A program made the position numbers and the translations under genes. A model generated the notes under the pieces. The model did not search any database. It was not told the DNA's origin and saw nothing but the letters and a program-made list of their open reading frames with translations. A stretch of 64,000 nucleotides of DNA from Candidatus Zixiibacteriota bacterium. GTDB taxonomy: Bacteria > Zixibacteria > MSB-5A5 > GN15 > FEB-12. The first letter of the stretch is position 1. Each line of letters opens with the position of its first letter. The DNA is taken from NCBI GenBank assembly GCA_040753875.1, contig JBFMDV010000034.1, positions 1 to 64,000 of the forward strand. The letters run 5' to 3'. Below, in pieces: positions 12,534 through 40,679 of the stretch.

Positions 12534-12573
12534 CGTCGCCTGGGCTCACGCCCCGGCGACGTTTTCTTTTTTT
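12534..12573 (+). terminator. Rho-independent terminator of rpmA
   Basis: CGTCGCC (from 12534) pairs with GGCGACG (12555-12561), extended inward by GGGC/GCCC, and is followed by a T-rich run of 12 nt (TTTTC then seven T). Confidence 0.85.
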
Positions 12574-12643
12574 GCTTTCCCCTGCTTCCCTTGCGTTCTA
12601 CCTTGTTGACACAAGCGTAAACCGACATCACTGGAACAAATCA

Positions 12644-13927
12644 ATGATCAAAACAGTGTTGGCAGTCGCCCTCGTTGCTGGCTTGGCCGTGCCTGTTGGC
12701 GGTCAGGACGCGGCGGCACAAGCATTCGACAGCGCCGGCCCCCAGCCGGACACGACCATCTCACGAACTGATACCGCGCAGGCTGCGGCCAGTGTCTACC
12801 CGCTCTCGCCCGAACGCAAAGAGAAGCTGATCGCCTATTCCCGTTTCACCATGCTCTGGCGGTTTGCTGATTTTGCCATCAGCGTGGGGGTGTTACTTCT
12901 GATCCTGTTCACGGGGTTCTCGGCTCGACTGTGCCAATGGGCGCAGGTCGCACGGAAACGCTTTCTCGTCACATGGCTCTATCTCGTTCTCGTCCTATCC
13001 ACGATCTGGCTGCTCGGGTTCCCGTTCGATTTCTATCGGAATTACGTCGTCGAAAGCCGCTTTGGCTTCATGAACCAGACCTTCACCGGCTGGTTCAGCG
13101 AAAACGTCCTCTCGCTTGCACTCAGTATGCTGCTCGGCATCGTTCCGGCCTGGTTCCTCTATTGGTTGATCGGGAGGTTCCGCAAATGGTGGCTGTCGTT
13201 TTCGATCGGCGCGATCCCGTTCATGGTCTTTTTCATTGTGATCGCACCGGTTGTCATCGCGCCGCTTTTCAACAAATTTGAGCCGCTCAAGGACAAACAA
13301 CTCGAAACTACCATCTTGAACCTGGCCGATAAGGCTGGTATCGAGGGGTCCGATGTGTTCCAGGTGAATGCCTCCAAGCAGTCCACCAAGGTGAACGCGT
13401 ATGTCACCGGGCTGTTCGGGACCAAGCGGATCGTTCTCTACGACAATCTGATCAACAACTTCACCACCGATGAGATCCGGTTCGTGATGGGGCACGAAAT
13501 GGGGCACTATGTCATGCATCATGTCTGGTGGGGGCTGCTGCTGGCGATCGTGCTTCTTCTGGTCATTCTGTGGCTCACCAATCTGTCCATACACGGAATA
13601 ATCAGCAGGTTTCACCGCCGCTGGGGATTTGACCGGCTCTCGGATATTGCCTCGCTGCCGTTAGTGCTCCTCTATCTGACCGTCATTTCGTTTTTGCTCC
13701 AGCCGGTAATGAATGGCGTCAGCCGGCATTTTGAGCACCGGTCGGACGTCTACGGCATGGATATCACCAGTGTTTCCGGCGAGACCGCAGCGATTGCGTT
13801 CGACAAACTCTCGGCGCTCAACCTATCCGATCCGGATCCAAACCCAATCATCGAATTCTGGTTTTACAGCCACCCCGCCCTGCAAAAGCGGATGGCGTTC
13901 GTGCGGGCATATCGTCCTGTCGGCTGA
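12644..13927 (+). CDS. Ste24-type M48 membrane metalloprotease
   Basis: A 427-aa integral membrane zinc protease like the CAAX-prenyl protease Ste24. HEMGH is at residues 284-288, with the third ligand in FEHRSDVYG (Glu 364). Other family marks are VNASKQSTKVNAYVTGLFGTKRIVLYD before the active site, ESRFGFMNQT near residue 130 and several hydrophobic helices. An N-terminal signal-like segment (MIKTVLAVALVAGLAV) precedes a polar stretch, which is an addition to the normal Ste24 start. The start at ATG 12644 is inferred from this segment; only weak GGAAC precedes it. Bacterial Ste24 relatives act in membrane protein quality control; the substrate here is unknown. The M1 peptidase gene follows after 41 nt. 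Confidence 0.88.
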   Translation: MIKTVLAVALVAGLAVPVGGQDAAAQAFDSAGPQPDTTISRTDTAQAAASVYPLSPERKEKLIAYSRFTMLWRFADFAISVGVLLLILFTGFSARLCQWAQVARKRFLVTWLYLVLVLSTIWLLGFPFDFYRNYVVESRFGFMNQTFTGWFSENVLSLALSMLLGIVPAWFLYWLIGRFRKWWLSFSIGAIPFMVFFIVIAPVVIAPLFNKFEPLKDKQLETTILNLADKAGIEGSDVFQVNASKQSTKVNAYVTGLFGTKRIVLYDNLINNFTTDEIRFVMGHEMGHYVMHHVWWGLLLAIVLLLVILWLTNLSIHGIISRFHRRWGFDRLSDIASLPLVLLYLTVISFLLQPVMNGVSRHFEHRSDVYGMDITSVSGETAAIAFDKLSALNLSDPDPNPIIEFWFYSHPALQKRMAFVRAYRPVG

Positions 13928-13968: not shown

Positions 13969-16296
13969 ATGACGCTTGCTCGAACCCTGATGGGATGCCT
14001 GCTCCTCGGTATTTCGGGTTACACGCCGGACCTTCGGGCCACTGATGATACCGCACTTCTGACGGCGTTCCAGGAGTTGCGGACGCCGTTGCTCGACAGC
14101 AGCACCGCCAGGATAGTTGCCAATGTCATCATCGAGCATAAAGATTTCAGGCTCCTGTTGGATTCCGGAACACTCGTGTTCTTCGCGCCGCTGGTGATCG
14201 ACGGCGACTCGCGTCGGTACGGCGGCATCTTCGAGGGAACCGGCCGGTTGCAGTTTGCGCCGCTGATTCCCATGGAGAAAGACCAGCTGCGACGGTTCTT
14301 TAAGTCCGATTCGATCGACCGTTCGTTTGAACGCGTGCAGTTCTGGTGCAACGGGGCGATCATGCAGAGACTCCTCGATTCCGTGCCGGGCACGCCCGTG
14401 CCGACTGAAAGGGGAACCATCAAGTGGGCGCGCTCCTTTATGAAGTTTCTTACCGACGACGAAAAGCTGATTCATGTCTACAGTGCTCTTCAGAACCTCG
14501 TACATCCTCGTCGCCAGCCGTACCTGCTGGTGAACACCTACTTGTCGCAAAAGCATCAGGTGGTGTACGAATACGACCCCTACGGTCGCGAAGAGGTGAG
14601 TTTTCTCAAGCATTACGATCAGTTTGGTTATGGCCGATGGCTCGAACCAATATGTGTCTATTCGGCCTTCGCCGACGGCTCCCTCGAAAAAATGAACGGT
14701 ATCGCCAAGGATCAGATCGCCACGAGGCACTACGACATCACTGCCACGATCAGCCGCAACGGCGAGATGAATGCCGATGTCGCCATGAGCTTCGAAGTTA
14801 ACATGACGCCGGTCCAGATCATTTACTTGTACCTCCTGGAGGATTTGCAGGTGGACAGCGTCCTGGATTCCACCGGCAGGCATCTTACATTTGTCCGCTA
14901 CAAGAAGGAAAGCCACAAGTCCGGCGAACTGGTATTGCTCATGCCGCGGGTGTTGGATATGGGAGAGAAACTCACCCTCCGTTTCTTTTACCGGGGAGAC
15001 GTGGCGGAAAAGAACATGGGAGAATTTTTTGTCGGCACCGGCGCCGAATGGTACCCGCGGTACGGCTACGGTCAGCGGGCCACCTATGACATGAAGTTTT
15101 CCACCCCGGCCGATTATGGGTTTGTCGCGACGGGCACGCTGGTGGAAAGCCGCAAGGAAAAGCACGTACTGCGCACTCGGTACAAGCAGGACAACCCGGC
15201 CAAGAATGTGGCCTTCAATATCGGCACATTCAAGCAGTACGATTTCGAGGAAGAGGGGCAGCCGCCGGTGCAGATACACTTCTCGGAGAGTATGCACAAC
15301 GAACTGAGCAGGGCGCTGGCCTATGAGATGGTTGGTACCGGCTCCCACATGGAGCGGCAGGTCAGCGGCGATGTCAGAAACAGCCTGAAGCTATATTCGA
15401 CTTTCTTCGGCGCCTATCCGCATGACCGGATGGTTGTATCAGAGATTCTGGCCGCGCACAGCGAGGCATTCCCAGCCTTTCTTCATCTCGGAGTCGCTAC
15501 ATGGATTAGCACTGACCCCTGGGGGTTCAGTCGTCTCCACCGATCACACGAAGTTGCCCACCAGTGGTGGGGGGGTGGGGTTGGATACGAGACCTACCAC
15601 GACCAATGGCTCTCCGAGGGATTCTCCGAGTACAGCGCGTTTATGTACCTGCAGGCTACATCCGGCAACGACAAATTCCTGGACCGCCTGAACGACAACC
15701 GCAAGGAGATACTCTCGGCGCACCACTATATCTTCGGCGAGGATACCGAATCCGGACCGATCGCGCTGGGGTACCGCACGGCCTCGACAAAGACACTCGA
15801 GGATTATGATCTGATCATATACAAGAAAGGGGCGTTCATCCTGCACATGCTTCGGCAATTGCTCCTGGATCTCGAGACCATGAAAGAGGACCGATTCCTC
15901 ACCATGATGCAGGATTTCTTCGTGGCCTATGTGGGACGGAATGCCTCAACTCTCGATTTCAAACGACTGGTAGAGCGCCACACGGGGGTCGACATGACCT
16001 GGTTTTTCGATCAGTGGGTCCTGCAGAGTGCCATTCCAACGTACAACTTCAGCTATCAGGTAGCACCAAAGAGCGAGGGCGGGGTTGATCTGGTCATGCA
16101 TGTCGAGCAGAAGAACGTGGCGCCCGATTTCAAGATGTACGTGCCGGTTGAGGTCGAGTTGGAAAGCGGCGCCAAATCGTATCTCAGGCTGCTCATTGAC
16201 GAACCGGTGAAGGAGTTCAGGATACCTACGCAGCAGAAACCACGGAAGGTGAAGTTCAACCCGTTTTATTCCGCGCTCGCGGATGTGAATCAGTAA
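13969..16296 (+). CDS. M1-family (gluzincin) metallopeptidase, predicted active
   Basis: A 775-aa exported protein. The active site is complete: HEVAH at residues 527-531, then exactly 18 residues to the third zinc ligand Glu 550 in WLSEGFSEY, the M1 spacing. A signal-like hydrophobic N-terminus follows TLARTLMGCLLLG. The N-terminal 250 residues are family-specific; the middle (about 260-430) resembles the M1 beta-sheet domain. The usual GxMEN substrate motif is not obvious. The last stretch, VKFNPFYSALADV, is matched by the end of the paralogue at 36348-38552, which has lost the zinc site. It lies 41 nt after the M48 gene, possibly in one operon. The substrate is unknown; aminopeptidase activity is family inference. 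Confidence 0.85.
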   Translation: MTLARTLMGCLLLGISGYTPDLRATDDTALLTAFQELRTPLLDSSTARIVANVIIEHKDFRLLLDSGTLVFFAPLVIDGDSRRYGGIFEGTGRLQFAPLIPMEKDQLRRFFKSDSIDRSFERVQFWCNGAIMQRLLDSVPGTPVPTERGTIKWARSFMKFLTDDEKLIHVYSALQNLVHPRRQPYLLVNTYLSQKHQVVYEYDPYGREEVSFLKHYDQFGYGRWLEPICVYSAFADGSLEKMNGIAKDQIATRHYDITATISRNGEMNADVAMSFEVNMTPVQIIYLYLLEDLQVDSVLDSTGRHLTFVRYKKESHKSGELVLLMPRVLDMGEKLTLRFFYRGDVAEKNMGEFFVGTGAEWYPRYGYGQRATYDMKFSTPADYGFVATGTLVESRKEKHVLRTRYKQDNPAKNVAFNIGTFKQYDFEEEGQPPVQIHFSESMHNELSRALAYEMVGTGSHMERQVSGDVRNSLKLYSTFFGAYPHDRMVVSEILAAHSEAFPAFLHLGVATWISTDPWGFSRLHRSHEVAHQWWGGGVGYETYHDQWLSEGFSEYSAFMYLQATSGNDKFLDRLNDNRKEILSAHHYIFGEDTESGPIALGYRTASTKTLEDYDLIIYKKGAFILHMLRQLLLDLETMKEDRFLTMMQDFFVAYVGRNASTLDFKRLVERHTGVDMTWFFDQWVLQSAIPTYNFSYQVAPKSEGGVDLVMHVEQKNVAPDFKMYVPVEVELESGAKSYLRLLIDEPVKEFRIPTQQKPRKVKFNPFYSALADVNQ

Positions 16297-31097: not shown

Positions 31098-31255
31098 GAA
31101 GTGATAGATTCCTCGTTGATCGTTTTAGCGGAAAGCTATGTCCGACGCCGGTAAAGTCAAGCCGCGGCTGACGCCAACGCCACTTGCCGACGGTCGCACT
31201 TTTCCGGATATTGGTCACGGTACGTATTGCAACCCCCTGCCGAAAAGGACCACGT

Positions 31256-33067
31256 ATGCCCGTACACGCGAAACCAGCTGCGCAACCAAAGCGCGATGAG
31301 ATAGACCAACAGTACACCTGGAATCTGGCGGATATTTATGCCAGCGAGAGTTCCTGGGAGGCGGATTTCAAACGCGCCAGGCAGATGGTCGACAACGCCA
31401 AGTTGTTTGCCGGTCGCCTTCGGGAGTCGCCGTCCGTTCTATACGATTGTCTTGAAATCCGCAGCGAGCTTGGTATGTTGCTCTTCAACCTGTATCAGTA
31501 TGCGTTTCTCAACAAGGATCTCGACAACCGGGTCTCCAAGTACCAGGCCATGACCGAGCGAGCCGCCATGCTCTCGGCGGAGGCGTCCACCGCCCTCGCT
31601 TTCGTTGAACCGGAACTGCTTCAGATACCGGAGGCGGAACTGCTGCGGATGGCGGCGCAGTTTTCCAAAACCGATGTCTACGATTTCTATATCGCCGAAC
31701 TGATCCGGTCCAAGGCGCATGTTCGCTCGCACGAGGTGGAGGAGCTCCTGGCGATGGCCAGCACGGTCTCACGTGGGCCGGATACGATCTTCAGCATGCT
31801 CGATGATGCCGACCTCACCTACCCGGTGATTACCGACGAGCACGGCAACGAGGTTCAACTCACCAAGCAGCGGTTTGCAAAACTACTTGAATCATCAGAT
31901 CAGCGAGTCCGGCGTGATACCAGCGACGGCTTCTATTCTTCGTACAAGGCGCACCTGAACACCATTGCCGCCACGCTGGCGGCCAGCGTAAACAAAGATG
32001 TATTCGTAACACGCGCGCGCCGATACGACAGCTGCCTTCACCGGGCGCTCGACGGTGACAATATCCCGGCGTCGGTGTATCATTCGCTCCTCGACAGCAC
32101 CGAGGCGAATCTGGCCGCCCTGCACGACTACGTGACGCTCCGAAAGCGGATACTGAGGCTCGACACGATCCGGCCGTACGACATGTTCTGTCCGCTGTTT
32201 CCGGAATATGACTACGAGGTGCCCTACGACGATGCGGTTCGCCAGGTGCTCGAGGCGGTGAAACCGCTCGGGACGGAGTATCAGCAGGCGATGTCGCATG
32301 CCTTTACGACTCGCTGGGTGGACGTGTTCGAGACCGAGGGAAAAGGGAGCGGCGCCTACAACTACGGCAACTACAGCGTGCATCCATTCGTGCTGATGAA
32401 CTACAACGATACGGTCGACAACATGTTTACGCTGGCGCACGAAATGGGGCACGCCATGCACAGCCATTTGTCCAACCGAACACAGCCGTACGCCAAATCA
32501 CAATACTCCATCTTTGTGGCCGAGGTCGCCTCGACCCTCAACGAGGGACTTCTGTTGCATTATCTGCTGGAGAAGACGACCGACAAGCGGGCCAGGCTCT
32601 ATTTGTTGAACCGGCATCTCGACAACACGCTCGGCACGTTCTTTCACCAGGTGATGTACGCGCGTTTCGAGCTCGTGATTCACGAACAAGTTGAAAGCGG
32701 CAACGCCCTCTCCCCCGAATATCTGAATCAGGTATGGGGTAAGCTGACGGAGCAGTACTACGGTCCGATCATGGAACTGGACGAGCATTCGAAACTCAAA
32801 TGGTCCCGTGTCCCGCATTTCTACAACATGTATTACGTGTATCAATACGCGACATCGTATGCCGCCTCGCAGGCGATCATGGCGATGTTCCTCACGGGGG
32901 AAGCGGGAATTATCAAACGCTACCTCGAACTATTGTCCTCCGGCGGCAAAGATCATCCCATCGAGCTGCTCAAGAAATGCGGTGTCGACATGAGTTCACC
33001 CAAGCCAGTGCTGGCCACGATCGATCTGTTCCGGGATCAGGTGAAACAGATGGATAGTCTGGTGTAA
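31256..33067 (+). CDS. pepF: Oligoendopeptidase F, M3 family
   Basis: A cytoplasmic zinc peptidase that cleaves short peptides. The 603-aa protein starts with the typical YTWNLADIYASESSWEADF, has the Gly/Tyr-rich segment GSGAYNYGNY before the active site, HEMGH at residues 395-399 in FTLAHEMGHAMHS, and the third ligand in SIFVAEVASTLNEGLL. ATG 31256 follows GAAAAGGAC and gives the normal length; an upstream extension in frame lacks similarity. The flavoprotein gene follows 19 nt after the stop, so a short operon is likely. Confidence 0.94.
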   Translation: MPVHAKPAAQPKRDEIDQQYTWNLADIYASESSWEADFKRARQMVDNAKLFAGRLRESPSVLYDCLEIRSELGMLLFNLYQYAFLNKDLDNRVSKYQAMTERAAMLSAEASTALAFVEPELLQIPEAELLRMAAQFSKTDVYDFYIAELIRSKAHVRSHEVEELLAMASTVSRGPDTIFSMLDDADLTYPVITDEHGNEVQLTKQRFAKLLESSDQRVRRDTSDGFYSSYKAHLNTIAATLAASVNKDVFVTRARRYDSCLHRALDGDNIPASVYHSLLDSTEANLAALHDYVTLRKRILRLDTIRPYDMFCPLFPEYDYEVPYDDAVRQVLEAVKPLGTEYQQAMSHAFTTRWVDVFETEGKGSGAYNYGNYSVHPFVLMNYNDTVDNMFTLAHEMGHAMHSHLSNRTQPYAKSQYSIFVAEVASTLNEGLLLHYLLEKTTDKRARLYLLNRHLDNTLGTFFHQVMYARFELVIHEQVESGNALSPEYLNQVWGKLTEQYYGPIMELDEHSKLKWSRVPHFYNMYYVYQYATSYAASQAIMAMFLTGEAGIIKRYLELLSSGGKDHPIELLKKCGVDMSSPKPVLATIDLFRDQVKQMDSLV

Positions 33068-34454: not shown

Positions 34455-35627
34455 CTATAAGAGCGGAGTGATCTGCATTTGCAACGGGAGCGTGGTCACT
34501 TCGACCCCATCGTGACCGATCAGCACGTTTATCTCAGTGCGGAAGCCGCAGTCTTTCTGGTAAATACCCGGTTCGATCGAGAACAAGTGCCCTTTTTGGA
34601 GTCTTCGACGGTCCTCGGTCTCCAGGTTATCGATGTTCGGCCCGGTGCCGTGCTCGGACGACGTAATGGAGTGCCCGGTGCGATGGGTAAAGAACTCGCC
34701 GAATCCGGCGGAGCGCACCACGGCACGGCAGGCATCGTCGACTTCGTAGCCATGGACCGGCCGTTTCTCGATGTTTTCGCGCAGGAACGATACCGCCTTG
34801 TCCCGCGCACTCACCAGCACGCCGAACATCTGCGTATATCTGGCCGGGATCTGCTCGGTCGTCCCGGCGAACGCCATCCATGTGATATCGCCGAACACAC
34901 CGTGTGGGACCTTCATTTTTGCCCAGAGATCCAAAAGAACGAGTTGGCCCTTCTTGATGACCGCTGAGCGGTGTTCGTCGGGCTCATAATGGGGGTCGCC
35001 GGCGTTGGCATCGACCGAGCAATTGGGGCCGCTTTCGGTGGTCATGTCGTACGCCTCAAACTGCTCTTTGATGAAGCGACAGACATCGAACTCAGTGATA
35101 GAGCGGCCATCCTTAAGAGCGGCGGTGACATAGGCAAACGCTTTGTCCTTTATCTCGATGCAGTTGCGCGCAGCGATGCGGTGCGCGGCCATCTGCTCGA
35201 CGGAAAGACATGCTTGAAACGACGCCACCAAATCAGCCGATGAGACCACTTCGATTCCAAAGTCGCGCACCAGTTCAATGGTGCCGGCATCGACCAATCC
35301 GATGTACGGCAACCGGCCCATTGGCGAGTACTCCATGGCTACCCGTTTGCTGTGACTGAGCAACTCTTTGAGCTCTTGTTCGAGCAGGCTGTAGCTGGAA
35401 AAGGTGATCAGGCGCCCCTGGACTGCGGTAAACTTGGCTTTTTCGATAGCGTGCACCAGGGCCGTTGGTTCGCCGGCTGCCGGAATGAAATAGAACGAGC
35501 GGCGGGTCACGATACCACTCAGCCCCAGTATGGCAACGGCAATGGTGTTGCGGGCGTGAAAATCCGCCATCAGCCAGCCATCAAGCTCATGTTCCGCCAA
35601 ATAGGCTTGGATTTTTTGTATGTCCAT
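34455..35627 (-). CDS. M24-family Xaa-Pro peptidase
   Basis: A 390-aa protein with a creatinase-like N-terminal domain (MDIQKIQAYLAEHELDGWLM) and a pita-bread catalytic domain. All five metal ligands can be placed: Asp in LVLLDLWAK, Asp in GVFGDITWM, His in THRTGHSI, Glu in LFSIEPGIY and Glu in FRTEINVLI. It is likely a proline dipeptidase or aminopeptidase P-like enzyme acting in the cytoplasm. A TTG at 35669 would extend the N-terminus; ATG 35627 matches the family start. The gene is divergent from the P-loop ATPase gene. Confidence 0.9.
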   Translation of the reverse strand: MDIQKIQAYLAEHELDGWLMADFHARNTIAVAILGLSGIVTRRSFYFIPAAGEPTALVHAIEKAKFTAVQGRLITFSSYSLLEQELKELLSHSKRVAMEYSPMGRLPYIGLVDAGTIELVRDFGIEVVSSADLVASFQACLSVEQMAAHRIAARNCIEIKDKAFAYVTAALKDGRSITEFDVCRFIKEQFEAYDMTTESGPNCSVDANAGDPHYEPDEHRSAVIKKGQLVLLDLWAKMKVPHGVFGDITWMAFAGTTEQIPARYTQMFGVLVSARDKAVSFLRENIEKRPVHGYEVDDACRAVVRSAGFGEFFTHRTGHSITSSEHGTGPNIDNLETEDRRRLQKGHLFSIEPGIYQKDCGFRTEINVLIGHDGVEVTTLPLQMQITPLL

Positions 35628-35692
35628 AACGTCTCTTGTGATAATACGAATTTCCGTTGGAGCTATCAACTGCTATTGCGACGGATGATGGC

Positions 35693-35721
35693 TTGACAGC
35701 CACGGAATGTCAAGGTAGATT
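35693..35721 (+). promoter_or_regulatory. sigma70-type promoter of the P-loop ATPase gene
   Basis: TTGACA (35693-35698), 17-nt spacer, TAGATT (35716-35721). Predicted leader only about 15 nt, without a clear Shine-Dalgarno. Confidence 0.6.
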
Positions 35722-35743: not shown

Positions 35744-36319
35744 ATGAATCACCGCATCGTCATAACCGGCGCTCCGGGGTCCGGTAAGACGGATTTTCTC
35801 CTGCGATTGTCGACCCATTCGACGTTTTCGCGTTTCACCTTTTTCGATGAGCTGGCCAGGCAACTGTTGATAGAGGATCCCTCGATTCGGCAGGACAAGA
35901 GGCGCTTTCACGGTGAAATCTATCGCCGCCAGACTTCGCGCGAACGGGCGGTCGATGGCCCGTTCATTACGGATCGTGGGACGGTAGATGCTTTCGCCTT
36001 TCACCCGGAAACACTCATCGATGTGGCGACCTCGCTGTCGCGTGAGTACAAGAGATACAGCGCCGCTATCCAGCTTGGTTCGGCGGCGCGACTGGGTGAC
36101 AATTTCTATCGGTGCGACGCCGTACGGAATGAAACCATTGAGGATGCGTTGATTATCGAAGAGGCGCTCCGCCGTGTCTGGCAGGGGCATCCCGGTTACC
36201 ATTTCGTTTCGGCGCAGCCGGATTACGAGGCCAAATACCAGGAGTTCCTCTCGCTGCTGAACCGTATCACCGATCGGTCCGGGGCGGACACCCGGCAGCC
36301 ACAACACGAAAAACACTGA
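35744..36319 (+). CDS. Small AAA_28-type P-loop ATPase/kinase-like protein
   Basis: A 191-aa protein starting MNHRIVITGAPGSGKTDFL, with a Walker A at the very N-terminus, then FTFFDELARQLL and PFITDRGTVDAFAF, where the Asp resembles the Walker B/lid region of small nucleotide kinases of the AAA_28 type. Function is unknown; relatives are annotated as ATPases or kinases near NAD metabolism without firm evidence. ATG 35744 is chosen because it leads into the P-loop; an extension upstream crosses the promoter. The degenerate M1-like gene follows after 28 nt. Confidence 0.7.
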   Translation: MNHRIVITGAPGSGKTDFLLRLSTHSTFSRFTFFDELARQLLIEDPSIRQDKRRFHGEIYRRQTSRERAVDGPFITDRGTVDAFAFHPETLIDVATSLSREYKRYSAAIQLGSAARLGDNFYRCDAVRNETIEDALIIEEALRRVWQGHPGYHFVSAQPDYEAKYQEFLSLLNRITDRSGADTRQPQHEKH

Positions 36320-36347: not shown

Positions 36348-38552
36348 ATGAAACTACGGTACCTGTTGATGCTGATGCTGACGGCGGTTGTCGGGACGGC
36401 GGCCGCTCAGTCGGATTTCTACAAGAAGTTCAAGTCAGATTACGCCTCCCTTGATCTGGACCTGCTGAACAACCCGTGCGAGCTGGGGATCGTGAAGGAC
36501 TTTGTGTATCAGAAAGACATCGCGACATTCACGTTCCATGACGGCAAGATGTACCTGCTGCGCCCGATCGACGGACGTCCCACCACGGCCATCTTCATTG
36601 GGCGGGGGAGCGCCGCCATTGACATACCCGCACATGTCGAACGGCAGTGCCTCTGGTACGCCTCGGGAGACAGCGGTGTGGCGCAGGATTTCGTGGTCTG
36701 TTTCATCCGCATGGCCGACGATCTTGACCTTCGCCTGAAGGAGAAGTTCACGTTTGCCACACAGCAACTCGACTGGAAAGATTTCAACCTGGCCAAGAAG
36801 GCACAGGGGGAATTTTTCTTCAAGCCGGTCATCCAGCATGAGTACGACAATTATTTCCAGCTCCTTCGTTCTGCGTACGAAAGGTCGGCCGACGGTTATT
36901 TTTGGATCGATTTCAATCGCTACGTCTTTTCCTTTGACCCCAATCGAGCCGAGCAGACCGTTGTTGCCTACGAGAAGGAGGGGGGCGCGGTGACGGTCAC
37001 TGATGGGGCTGTGTTGCAGCGCAAAGAGCGGGGCATCACTGATGACCTCAAAATGTCTGACATTTTCTATCCTACCACAATCATCGACCGGCGGGCCAAC
37101 CTGGTGATGCAGGGCATGGAAGGGCGTCAGATCGATTCCGGTGACATACTAGCGCGGCTGGTTGTCAACACCGACAGCACACGGTTCCAGTCGCTGTTTC
37201 TCCACTACAATCTCAAGCTGGATTCCATGGCGGTCGACGGTGTGCCGGTCGAATTTCACCGCCGTCGCGATTTTAATTTCATAGGTGTCATGCTTCCGGC
37301 GTACCGCCACAAGGGGGACACACTCGATGTCCGGCTCTGGCTGCACGGCAAAGATTTCGTCTCGGCCATGCCGTACGTCGAGAATCCGGCGGTTTCGCCT
37401 CACCACCTGACCATCAGTTCGCGTCCTGAATTCAATTACCTGCTGCCGGGGGTCGAGAAGATGGAACAAGGGACCGGCGACGTCACGACTATCACCGTCG
37501 AACCAACTCAGCAATTCCGCGATTTCCAATTTCAGGGATATGCGCCAAAGTTCGATACCATTCCGAAAACGACCGAGACGGGCGTGACGGTCAATTTTCT
37601 CAAATCCCGCGCCATCACCAAGAAACAGTTCGAGTGTTTTGTTCCTGACGAGACCTATCAAAGCGCCACGCTTGGGGCGTTTAATTACTTCGCCGGAACG
37701 CTCGGGAATCCGGCCGGCCTGTTCGGGTTTTCGGTGTTCCCCGAAGGGAGCATGTCCATGCCGGGCATTCTGGAGATTCGCCAGGTGCACTGTATCATCG
37801 ACGGTACCGGCGGCTTCCACCTGCTGCCCGGTGTCGAGATGGGGAGACAGTATTTTGGAGCGCTCATGCGACCGGCGTCGAGTCGCGAGCAATGGTTGGT
37901 CGACGCCGCACCTGAGTATCTCGGTCTGATGTATGTGCAGGAGGCACTGGGGGCCGGTCCGTTCTACACGGAACTGGTCGGTCGTAAGAACGTGGTGACG
38001 ACGTTAGTCGAGCGAAGCCGGGACCTGCCGTTGGGCACAGGGTACCGTGTCCCCGATTCACTGCGCGTGTGCAAAGGGGCTTGGGTGTTGCACATGCTTC
38101 GGTTTATGATGCTGGACCTCGAGAAGCAATCCGATGCGACGTTCCTGAAGTTCCTCCGCGAGCTGTCGAATCTCTGCAACAGCCGGACCTTCACCAATGC
38201 TGATATTGTCGCGCTGGCGGAAAAAAGCTACGGCCAACCACTGGAGTGGTTTTTCCGGCATTGGTTGTTCGAGCGAAATATCCCGGAGTACTCGGTGGAA
38301 TATACCATCGTGGAGAAGGAAAATGGCTGGGGGGTCGATGGTCAGGTGCGCACCAACGGCGTTGGATCGGATTTTCAGATGCCGGTGGTGATGCGGGTGG
38401 AAACGACCAACGGCGAATCCAGCTTCATGCGGCAGATGATCACAGGGAACCAGGATCACTTTACTCTGGGGCCGTTCGCGGTGCAACCGAAGCAGCTCTA
38501 TTTCAACGAGTTTTACAGCGTCCTGTCCAAGGACAACGTGAAGAAGAAATAG
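36348..38552 (+). CDS. M1-peptidase-like exported protein lacking the zinc site
   Basis: A 734-aa protein with a clear signal peptide (MKLRYLLMLMLTAVVGTAAA, cut near AQS). It is a paralogue of the peptidase at 13969-16296: similar order, a similar C-terminal end (LYFNEFYSVLSKDNV) and matching segments such as KGAWVLHMLRFMMLDLE and PLEWFFRHWLFERNIPEYSV. At the active site, HExxH is replaced by VEMGR (residues 496-500) and the third ligand, 19 positions on, is Asp 519 instead of Glu. Both histidines are therefore missing and metal-dependent peptidase activity is not expected. A binding or chaperone-like role is inference. The frame is intact over its full length, so it is not a decaying pseudogene. 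Confidence 0.8.
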   Translation: MKLRYLLMLMLTAVVGTAAAQSDFYKKFKSDYASLDLDLLNNPCELGIVKDFVYQKDIATFTFHDGKMYLLRPIDGRPTTAIFIGRGSAAIDIPAHVERQCLWYASGDSGVAQDFVVCFIRMADDLDLRLKEKFTFATQQLDWKDFNLAKKAQGEFFFKPVIQHEYDNYFQLLRSAYERSADGYFWIDFNRYVFSFDPNRAEQTVVAYEKEGGAVTVTDGAVLQRKERGITDDLKMSDIFYPTTIIDRRANLVMQGMEGRQIDSGDILARLVVNTDSTRFQSLFLHYNLKLDSMAVDGVPVEFHRRRDFNFIGVMLPAYRHKGDTLDVRLWLHGKDFVSAMPYVENPAVSPHHLTISSRPEFNYLLPGVEKMEQGTGDVTTITVEPTQQFRDFQFQGYAPKFDTIPKTTETGVTVNFLKSRAITKKQFECFVPDETYQSATLGAFNYFAGTLGNPAGLFGFSVFPEGSMSMPGILEIRQVHCIIDGTGGFHLLPGVEMGRQYFGALMRPASSREQWLVDAAPEYLGLMYVQEALGAGPFYTELVGRKNVVTTLVERSRDLPLGTGYRVPDSLRVCKGAWVLHMLRFMMLDLEKQSDATFLKFLRELSNLCNSRTFTNADIVALAEKSYGQPLEWFFRHWLFERNIPEYSVEYTIVEKENGWGVDGQVRTNGVGSDFQMPVVMRVETTNGESSFMRQMITGNQDHFTLGPFAVQPKQLYFNEFYSVLSKDNVKKK

Positions 38553-38630: not shown

Positions 38631-40679
38631 ATGCCTCCACGCTCATCACGCCGCCCGAAGACTCCCTTTCGGGCAGTCTATTTTCTCGTGCTGCTATTAT
38701 TCGGAGCAGCGGCGCTGGCTCCGGAGTTACGGCTCTGGGGGTTTGGGGGTTGGGCGTTTCTGCCGCCGATACTCACGCTGGCCCTGTTGGCAGCGGGTGT
38801 GGCGGCGGGGCTGGGCGCAAATCGATTATACGCTCTTGTGGTGAAGCAACCGGTGCCGGCCGACGAGAGTCCAGGTGCGGATCGCAAATTCCTGCTGATC
38901 GCCGCGATCGTCACAATCATCACTACGGCGACGTTCTGGCTCTTCCGTGGACAGACACATTTTCTTGGCGACGGCTACCAACTGCTCTCGCGACTCACCG
39001 GTGGAAGCATGATGATCAAGCAATGGGACATAGGGGCATCGTTCCTTATGGACTCAGTCTATGATCTGCTGGGCGGTCCTCCTTCGGACCGGGCCCTGGC
39101 TGCGTATCGGATTGTGTCGATTGTTTCCGGTTCGCTGTTTATGATTACCGTTTGTCTGGCGGCCCGTGCGCTGTTCATTCGGAACCTCCACAGGTACCTG
39201 TTTTTTTTCGGTCTTGGCACCGGCGGATACATGCTCTTGTATTTCGGCTACGTGGAGAACTACGCCACGTTTATTTTCGCGCTCGTGCTCTTCTGCCTGA
39301 CCGGATTGCTGGCGGCCAGGGGCCGTATCTCAAAATGGTGGGTCGTGCTGCCGTTTGTCGCAGCGTGTGGCCTGCATATCTTCGGAGCACTATTCCTGCC
39401 GAGCCTGATCTATCTGCTGGCGCGCGATACGGCGATAGGCAGGTCGGTCGGCAAAATGTCCGCCCGCGCCAGACTCCTGAGTGGAATAGGGCTCGTGCTG
39501 GCCGGGTCGGTCATCTATTACTATCTCTACACCCATTACTATTTCTTCACCTTTGCTTTGTTGCCGCTCTTGCCGGACCGGTTCACCGTGGAAGGGGATT
39601 ACCTCGTTTCATTGAAGCATCTCGCCGATACGGTCAACCTCCTGGTCTTGCTCGTGCCGGGGCTGCCGTTGTTCATTGCTCTGGCAGGCAGTGCGCAGAA
39701 CAGACCAATCCTTCGGACGCCGGAGAGCCAATTCCTGATAATCGCAGTACTCTGCTCGCTTATTGGCGTTTACGTGTTCAATCCAGGGATCGGGATGCCT
39801 CGAAACTGGGATCTGTTTGCAGTTGTCGGCGTACCGATAGCTGTGCTCTGTTACAGCCTTGCGCTCGGTGACGGCGTTCGCGGCCGGGAGCCGGTCATGG
39901 CGGCGCTTCTTGCGATCGTGCTGGGAGTTCTGTCACTCACTACTCGAGTTGTCGGTCAGGCCGTGCCGGAGATCGGTATCGCGACATTCAAGAACTACAT
40001 GACGCTCGATAAGATTCGCAATCGCAATGCCCGGAGCTTGTTGGTCAGCTACTACCGTGAGACCGGTGATTCTGCGCGGGCCAATGTGGAGCAGGCCGCC
40101 GTCGAGGCCGATTTTCCGGAAAGCCTGTTAAACAAGCGCGCCAAATCGCTCATCGCTCAAAGGCAGTTCCGCGAAGCGGAGCGGCTGTTGAGACAATCTA
40201 TTGAGATCAACCCATTGTATGTCGACGGCTACGGCAACCTGGGAGTCTGTTTGCTCGAACAGGGGAAGGTCGACTCAGCACAACTGCTGTTTGAGCTGGC
40301 TGACGGGATCAACCCGTACAATGTCAACACCATCAACAACATCGGCACCGCCATGCTTCGCCGCAAGGAGTATGTCGAGGCGGAAGGTATGTTCCATCGC
40401 GCCCTGGCGATTGATTCGACCTTGGTGTCGTCGATGGCCGGGTTAGCATCCGTCTATGTCGGACTCGACCAACTTGATAGTTCCATCGCGTATGTAGACC
40501 GGCTGGCGCATGTCGATGGGGTCCCCTCCGATTATTTCAAGCAGGCGGGGGATGCGTTCGTGGCCAGGTCCGCTTACCCGCAGGCGGCGCGGGCGTTCAC
40601 ATATGCTCTCGAAAGAGGGCTGGACAGTTCGTACGTCAGAGTTCTTCAGACAAAACACCCACAGTTGATTTTCCGGTGA
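38631..40679 (+). CDS. Multispanning membrane protein with C-terminal TPR domain
   Basis: A 682-aa protein with about a dozen hydrophobic helices in residues 15-450 and tetratricopeptide repeats in roughly 470-680 (SLIAQRQFREAERLLRQSIE, NLGVCLLEQGKVDSAQLLFE, NIGTAMLRRKEYVEAEGMFH). After the third helix comes RGQTHFLGDGYQLLSRL, an acidic loop like that of GT-C glycosyltransferases; VFNPGIGMPRNWDLFA lies between later helices. The TPR part would lie on one side of the membrane. A glycosyltransferase role is plausible but unproven. It begins about 80 nt after the M1-like gene. Confidence 0.65.
   Translation: MPPRSSRRPKTPFRAVYFLVLLLFGAAALAPELRLWGFGGWAFLPPILTLALLAAGVAAGLGANRLYALVVKQPVPADESPGADRKFLLIAAIVTIITTATFWLFRGQTHFLGDGYQLLSRLTGGSMMIKQWDIGASFLMDSVYDLLGGPPSDRALAAYRIVSIVSGSLFMITVCLAARALFIRNLHRYLFFFGLGTGGYMLLYFGYVENYATFIFALVLFCLTGLLAARGRISKWWVVLPFVAACGLHIFGALFLPSLIYLLARDTAIGRSVGKMSARARLLSGIGLVLAGSVIYYYLYTHYYFFTFALLPLLPDRFTVEGDYLVSLKHLADTVNLLVLLVPGLPLFIALAGSAQNRPILRTPESQFLIIAVLCSLIGVYVFNPGIGMPRNWDLFAVVGVPIAVLCYSLALGDGVRGREPVMAALLAIVLGVLSLTTRVVGQAVPEIGIATFKNYMTLDKIRNRNARSLLVSYYRETGDSARANVEQAAVEADFPESLLNKRAKSLIAQRQFREAERLLRQSIEINPLYVDGYGNLGVCLLEQGKVDSAQLLFELADGINPYNVNTINNIGTAMLRRKEYVEAEGMFHRALAIDSTLVSSMAGLASVYVGLDQLDSSIAYVDRLAHVDGVPSDYFKQAGDAFVARSAYPQAARAFTYALERGLDSSYVRVLQTKHPQLIFR

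Follow-up and report, generated by a model that had tools for sequence, protein, structure and literature searches.

Pseudopeptidases of the M1 fold are best known from eukaryotes, the example being TAF2, whose M1 domain is non-catalytic. In peptidase family M16, active and inactive subunits pair with each other. The aminopeptidase domain of TAF2 has been described to contact promoter DNA and other TAFs within TFIID (PMC6220335), and a mutated puromycin-sensitive aminopeptidase has been presented as an inactive binding protein, according to the title of Thompson et al. 2003 as cited in PMC6857582. Searches of the open-access literature for inactive bacterial M1 peptidases and for Zixibacteria peptidases listed no paper on the protein family described below, and none on a comparable bacterial clade was found there.

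Our analysis concerned a window of 64,000 nucleotides (positions 1 to 64,000 of contig JBFMDV010000034.1, Candidatus Zixiibacteriota bacterium), which carries a pseudopeptidase gene, hereafter Q, and an intact M1 gene, hereafter P, that was used as comparator. The open reading frame of Q was confirmed at the position and on the strand given in a preliminary description of this DNA, and the retention of its frame and signal peptide, likewise claimed there, agrees with the open frame of 734 aa and with a signal peptide recognized by eye. The following features are referred to throughout:

36348-38552, plus strand: Q, M1-fold pseudopeptidase gene, ATG start, 734 aa
36348-36407, plus strand: putative Sec signal peptide of Q, MKLRYLLMLMLTAVVGTAAA followed by QSDF, read by eye
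36480-36992, plus strand: N-terminal extension of Q, residues 45-215, where conservation is highest in the clade and lowest in active homologues
37065-37622, plus strand: region of Q matching M1 domain I, residues 240-425, from profile-profile alignment, with strands in a low-confidence model
37635-38282, plus strand: degenerate catalytic region of Q, residues 430-645, from alignment to M1
37635-37637, plus strand: Cys430 of Q, one half of a putative clade-specific disulfide
37791-37793, plus strand: Cys482 of Q, second half of the putative disulfide
37833-37847, plus strand: VEMGR of Q, residues 496-500, replacing HExxH
37902-37904, plus strand: Asp519 of Q, replacing the third zinc ligand Glu
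38067-38072, plus strand: Val574-Cys575 of Q, at the catalytic Tyr position of active homologues
13969-16296, plus strand: P, intact M1 peptidase with HEVAH-18-E and Tyr618 (Pfam Peptidase_M1, E 3.8e-17)

Sec signal peptides were also seen by eye in the Q orthologues with a complete start. The sequence of Q matched no family of Pfam, no match was obtained with NCBIfam or PADLOC, and viral contigs scanned with two profiles yielded no relative. The AlphaFold model of Q, built on an alignment of only four rows (Q and three relatives), reached a mean pLDDT of 43, and prediction of the N-terminal extension by itself a mean of 32, both of them poor models. Several metallopeptidase genes lie close together in the window between 12572 and 35669, namely M48 (12572-13927), M1 (13969-16296), M3 (31184-33067) and M24 (34455-35669, minus strand).

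Descent of Q from the M1 family was evident at several levels of comparison. BLASTP aligned Q with P at 29% identity over 284 aa (2e-30), hhalign of the Q and P families extended over 662 columns (probability 100%, E 7.8e-64), PF01433 was reached at E <= 0.01 by eight of 35 Q orthologues, and the PDB profile matches of the Q clade were nearly all to TAF2 and M1 enzymes. BLASTP and the profile-profile alignment agree in placing V496-E497-x-x-R500, 18 residues and D519 of Q without a gap opposite H527-E528-x-x-H531, 18 residues and E550 of P, which is the exactly spaced replacement of HEVAH + 18 + E by VEMGR + 18 + D that had been reported earlier. The Tyr that follows the zinc helices, a catalytic residue of M1 enzymes, is gone as well (RVCKGAW in Q against IYKKGAF in P); in this column 33 of 34 active homologues have Y, and most of the Q clade has S, T, A or V. 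At the position of the G-x-M-E-N motif, intact relatives have G(E/Q)(A/S)FPG or similar, of which the Q clade retains only the (S/T)MPG end, and the Glu of the G-E-(A/S)-F-P-G strand of active homologues is missing from it. Judged by these alignments, Q is an M1 homologue by descent in which the defining catalytic features of the family, the zinc ligands and the Tyr, are absent.

The same is true of its orthologues: none of the 40 aligned Q orthologues long enough to be compared at the site has a complete HExxH-18-E set. The Glu of HExxH is present in the Q of the window, yet in only six of the 40; the third-position Glu is left in eight and a His in three. A second HExxH-E set elsewhere in the fold, named in the preliminary description as possible counter-evidence, was not found in Q, and the one off-site HExxH among the 40 orthologues (L016, in the N-terminal domain) looks like a chance occurrence.

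Conservation of VEMGR in relatives, which had been suggested as a check, was not observed, and the idea of a conserved motif with a meaning of its own was rejected, VEMGR being private to this Q and the ligand columns drifting. Twelve different residues occupy the first-His column of the clade (95th percentile of variability), the Glu and third-ligand columns stand at the 71st and 73rd percentile, and the second-His column at the 52nd, with a bias to Arg (26/40) and Lys (5/40). Near-fixed around the old ligands are Q501, W502, F503, G504, R513, E514, W516, A520 and Y524, as would be expected of helices that still pack but have no catalytic task to serve. These columns could also be read as those of a protein that binds peptides uncut in the old substrate cleft, for example in order to sense or sequester them. 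Still present are the PG of the (S/A)(M/F)PG edge strand, QWFG, REhWL and KGxW..HMLR; the Arg or Lys at the second His in 31 of 40 orthologues could place a positive charge at the zinc position, and the mutated puromycin-sensitive aminopeptidase, to go by the title cited above, would be a precedent. However, few large parts of the protein are less conserved in this clade than the cleft region, its ligand columns drift, the retained residues look like packing residues and the strand Glu is lost, so that we regard binding in the cleft as quite improbable.

The Q clade proved to be old and restricted to one family. When 61 relatives were searched, Q orthologues turned up in most genomes of the same Zixibacteria family, mostly full length and at 43-56% identity. 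A profile built from 35 orthologues matched at 1e-60 or better in 52 of the 54 genomes of the source genome's family, the two genomes without a match being 69% and 85% complete. Among the 132 genomes of the phylum searched, no Q orthologue was detected in the remaining 26 of the order or in any of the 78 outside the family; the remaining matches in the phylum scored far lower and were P-type or other M1 proteins where examined. In the tree, the 40 Q orthologues clustered as a single group (SH-aLRT 100), and no active sequence fell among them. Its stem is long (1.7 changes per column), so its point of attachment among the active M1 groups is unsure; it falls outside the close relatives of P, and the earlier designation of Q as a paralogue of P thus applies in a deep sense only, the Q clade not being nested among those relatives. 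Since the zinc site is lost in all 40 orthologues, the loss is ancestral, and one loss of catalysis before the family diversified would be the simplest history. A second, diverged Q copy occurs in one genome (G027; L039:4857-7154, plus strand) at 39% identity to the Q of the window, and it has neither the zinc site nor the cysteine pair described below.

Reading frames of Q are open in nearly all assemblies (about 40 separate ones, full length), an alignment of 35 sequences has 37 invariant columns, and for the four pairs whose dS is unsaturated (below 0.5) the NG86 dN/dS was 0.108, 0.113, 0.135 and 0.139. The free drift of the ligand columns might be attributed to pseudogene decay or to faulty assembly, but this reading is already refuted by full-length open frames in about 40 assemblies at mostly 43-56% identity, and the dN/dS of 0.11-0.14 and the 37 invariant columns likewise speak against it; its probability is negligible. 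Loss of the catalytic residues and protein-wide purifying selection across orthologues, the combination by which a pseudoenzyme is recognized, thus both appear in the Q sequences. The proposal of a selected pseudoenzyme made in the preliminary description is accordingly upheld by the loss common to 40 of 40 orthologues, the open frames and the dN/dS values; as the ligand columns drift freely, the evidence for it lies in selection and shared loss and not in the site.

Comparison of Q with P revealed where the constraint on Q has gone. When both genes were taken from the same eight genomes (28 pairs), whole-protein identity was similar (Q 50%, P 47%). In residues 45-215, the extension that precedes the M1 domains, Q pairs were 61% identical versus 33% for P pairs, Q being higher in all 28 comparisons, and in residues 430-645, the catalytic region, the values were 47% and 62%, Q being higher in none of the 28. 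The same genomes recur in these comparisons, which are thus not independent; the evidence is how large and how consistent the effect is. In 98.8% of 780 Q pairs, and in 0% of 231 pairs of active homologues, conservation was higher in the N-terminal extension than in the catalytic region. Because profile-profile alignment finds the extension in both the Q and P families, the same domain has changed in importance. Ten polar residues in it (K56, D57, R77, D124, D127, Q153, D167, S175, R179 and R191) are invariant in 40 of 40 Q orthologues, at columns that are mostly variable in active homologues. As the constraint has moved from the catalytic region to the extension, the working part of Q would most likely be the N-terminal extension and not the old cleft.

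Invariant polar residues at such columns, with high constraint on the extension and low constraint on the catalytic region, would also fit a gain of a different enzymatic activity in the extension, with the M1 body as an attached remnant. Against this, active M1 homologues have the same domain, which is hence not an acquired enzyme, the extension gave no match in Pfam, NCBIfam or solved structures, and a binding site would explain the invariant polar residues equally well. We consider a new enzyme unlikely, and in our reading Q is most likely a non-enzymatic binding or scaffold protein. Of the functions suggested in the preliminary description, binder or scaffold remains, and the results favour the N-terminal domain over the old cleft as the working part.

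A further feature of the Q clade is a pair of cysteines. C430 and C482 are both present in 37 of the 40 orthologues, both absent in three and never found singly, and the pair was not found in the active, P-type homologues. This pattern suggests a new, clade-specific disulfide between C430 and C482, for which, in an exported protein, it is strong but indirect evidence. C482 lies 14 residues ahead of the old first His, and the bridge would therefore hold the region that was once held by zinc.

The third function proposed in the preliminary description, a regulator of the active paralogue, did not survive the comparison of genomes. That Q might regulate P or form an obligate pair with it finds some encouragement in other peptidase families (M16), where an active subunit is paired with an inactive one, and in the position of both genes within the window, 20 kb apart. 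However, a full-length P-type match beyond Q itself was present in only about 25 of the 54 family genomes, compared with 52 of 54 for Q, and P is missing where Q is present in several genomes that are 97-100% complete (G007, G008, G009, G012, G017 and G034). The absence of P from about half of the Q genomes refutes this as a general role; moreover, the two genes are not adjacent, and the constant neighbour of Q is a different gene. A partnership with P is consequently very improbable.

The constant neighbour is an NTPase gene, which together with a candidate promoter precedes Q:

35693-35721, plus strand: promoter-like site TTGACA-17-TAGATT, 5' of the NTPase gene, consensus match only
35744-36319, plus strand: P-loop NTPase, AAA_28-like, clade-restricted, 28 bp upstream of Q

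The open reading frame listed for the NTPase starts at 35657, upstream of the likely ATG at 35744. The protein has a Walker A motif GAPxSGKT and a conserved TDRGTxDAFAFHPE; only weak P-loop matches were obtained with NCBIfam and PADLOC, and the sequence search returned no solved relative. A phylum search recovered the NTPase from 45 of the 54 genomes of the family and from none of the 78 outside it. Coordinate comparison showed that it adjoins Q in 43 of the 45; of the other two, one has the NTPase on another contig and in one a contig end hides the arrangement. In the 21 loci compared it is usually the gene directly upstream of Q, with a gap of 6-72 bp, and a consensus scan detected no promoter-like site between the two genes. 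One genome (G035) has only a remnant of the NTPase beside Q, and most members of genus g20 carry Q without it. The downstream TPR membrane protein (38631-40679) was rejected as a conserved neighbour, being present in two of the 21 loci. This arrangement makes a two-gene operon of NTPase and Q likely and a functional link between them plausible. As the NTPase is presumably cytoplasmic and Q exported, the link would probably run through shared regulation or a shared process and not through direct contact.

Taken as a whole, the explanation that we consider probable is that of an exported M1-fold pseudopeptidase, which lost catalysis once and was kept as a non-enzymatic binder working through its N-terminal domain on a disulfide-braced scaffold, co-transcribed with the NTPase. 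The ancestor of Q would have lost catalysis a single time, before its Zixibacteria family diversified, and the protein would have been kept as an exported, non-enzymatic one, export being read from the signal peptide recognized by eye. The old peptidase body may then serve as a rigid scaffold, braced by the C430-C482 disulfide in place of zinc, and the N-terminal extension may be the binding face for a ligand or a partner protein, either in the periplasm or on the outside of the cell, with Q putatively co-transcribed with the upstream P-loop NTPase. More tentatively, we suggest that a bacterial M1 peptidase became, in a single early conversion, an exported binder in which a former accessory N-terminal domain does the work, a disulfide brace replaces zinc and a P-loop NTPase completes a family-specific two-gene unit.

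Q thus represents a bacterial M1 pseudopeptidase of old origin, carried by nearly every member of one family and not detected elsewhere in the phylum, in which selection has moved to another domain after the loss of catalysis. Because there are genomes that hold an active as well as a dead relative, the direction of selection after such a loss can be measured directly. Q also provides a defined, testable protein for a lineage without a cultured model, with about 50 orthologues for structure work, and genes of this kind would be missed by genome annotation or wrongly labelled as peptidases.

Other unusual M1 genes were encountered in Zixibacteria. A lone M1 homologue in family f18 (G123; L101:1013-3349, plus strand), on a very long branch, has C-G-V-A-C + 18 + D, two Cys replacing the two His. 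A tandem M1 copy (G014; L049:1680-4331, minus strand) has an intact HExxH-E and Asp in place of the catalytic Tyr, and one genome (G111; L118:1162-12827, minus strand) carries five M1 peptidase genes in a row. A second dead M1 lineage occurs in genus g29 of the same family as Q (L048:2313-4895, L112:2086-4668 and L111:1836-3728, all minus strand), with N-(L/M)-x-x-R at the site; two of the three are 861 aa long and stand in tandem with an active copy. It resembles Q in the loss of both His and in the Arg at the second His position. However, its loss arose separately, within the P group, it retains the third-ligand Glu as well as the Tyr, has its active copy adjacent and shows no reversal of constraint.

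Compared with intact bacterial M1 peptidases (P, PF01433), Q has the same domain order, with an N-terminal extension and a C-terminal strand region, and 662 columns align; in contrast to Q, the P types keep HExxH-18-E and the Tyr, are most strongly constrained in the catalytic region and have no C430/C482 pair. The best solved match of the Q profile was TAF2 of TFIID (6hqa, E 7e-10), ahead of every active M1, followed by puromycin-sensitive aminopeptidase and tricorn-interacting factor F3 (9o5k, 8sw0 and 3q7j; 5e-7 to 4e-6), which differ from Q in being active zinc enzymes. TAF2 is eukaryotic, nuclear and much larger, whereas Q is bacterial and putatively exported, and the match spans only the catalytic region of Q (profile 444-663), the conserved N-terminal extension of Q being unmatched in TAF2. 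Q is probably not a TAF2 orthologue, and the two losses of catalysis were probably independent. The likeness lies in the M1-fold body, which is kept as a structural or binding module in TAF2 and is proposed to be so kept in Q, and as we read it, Q would by analogy work like TAF2, with the M1 body retained for binding.
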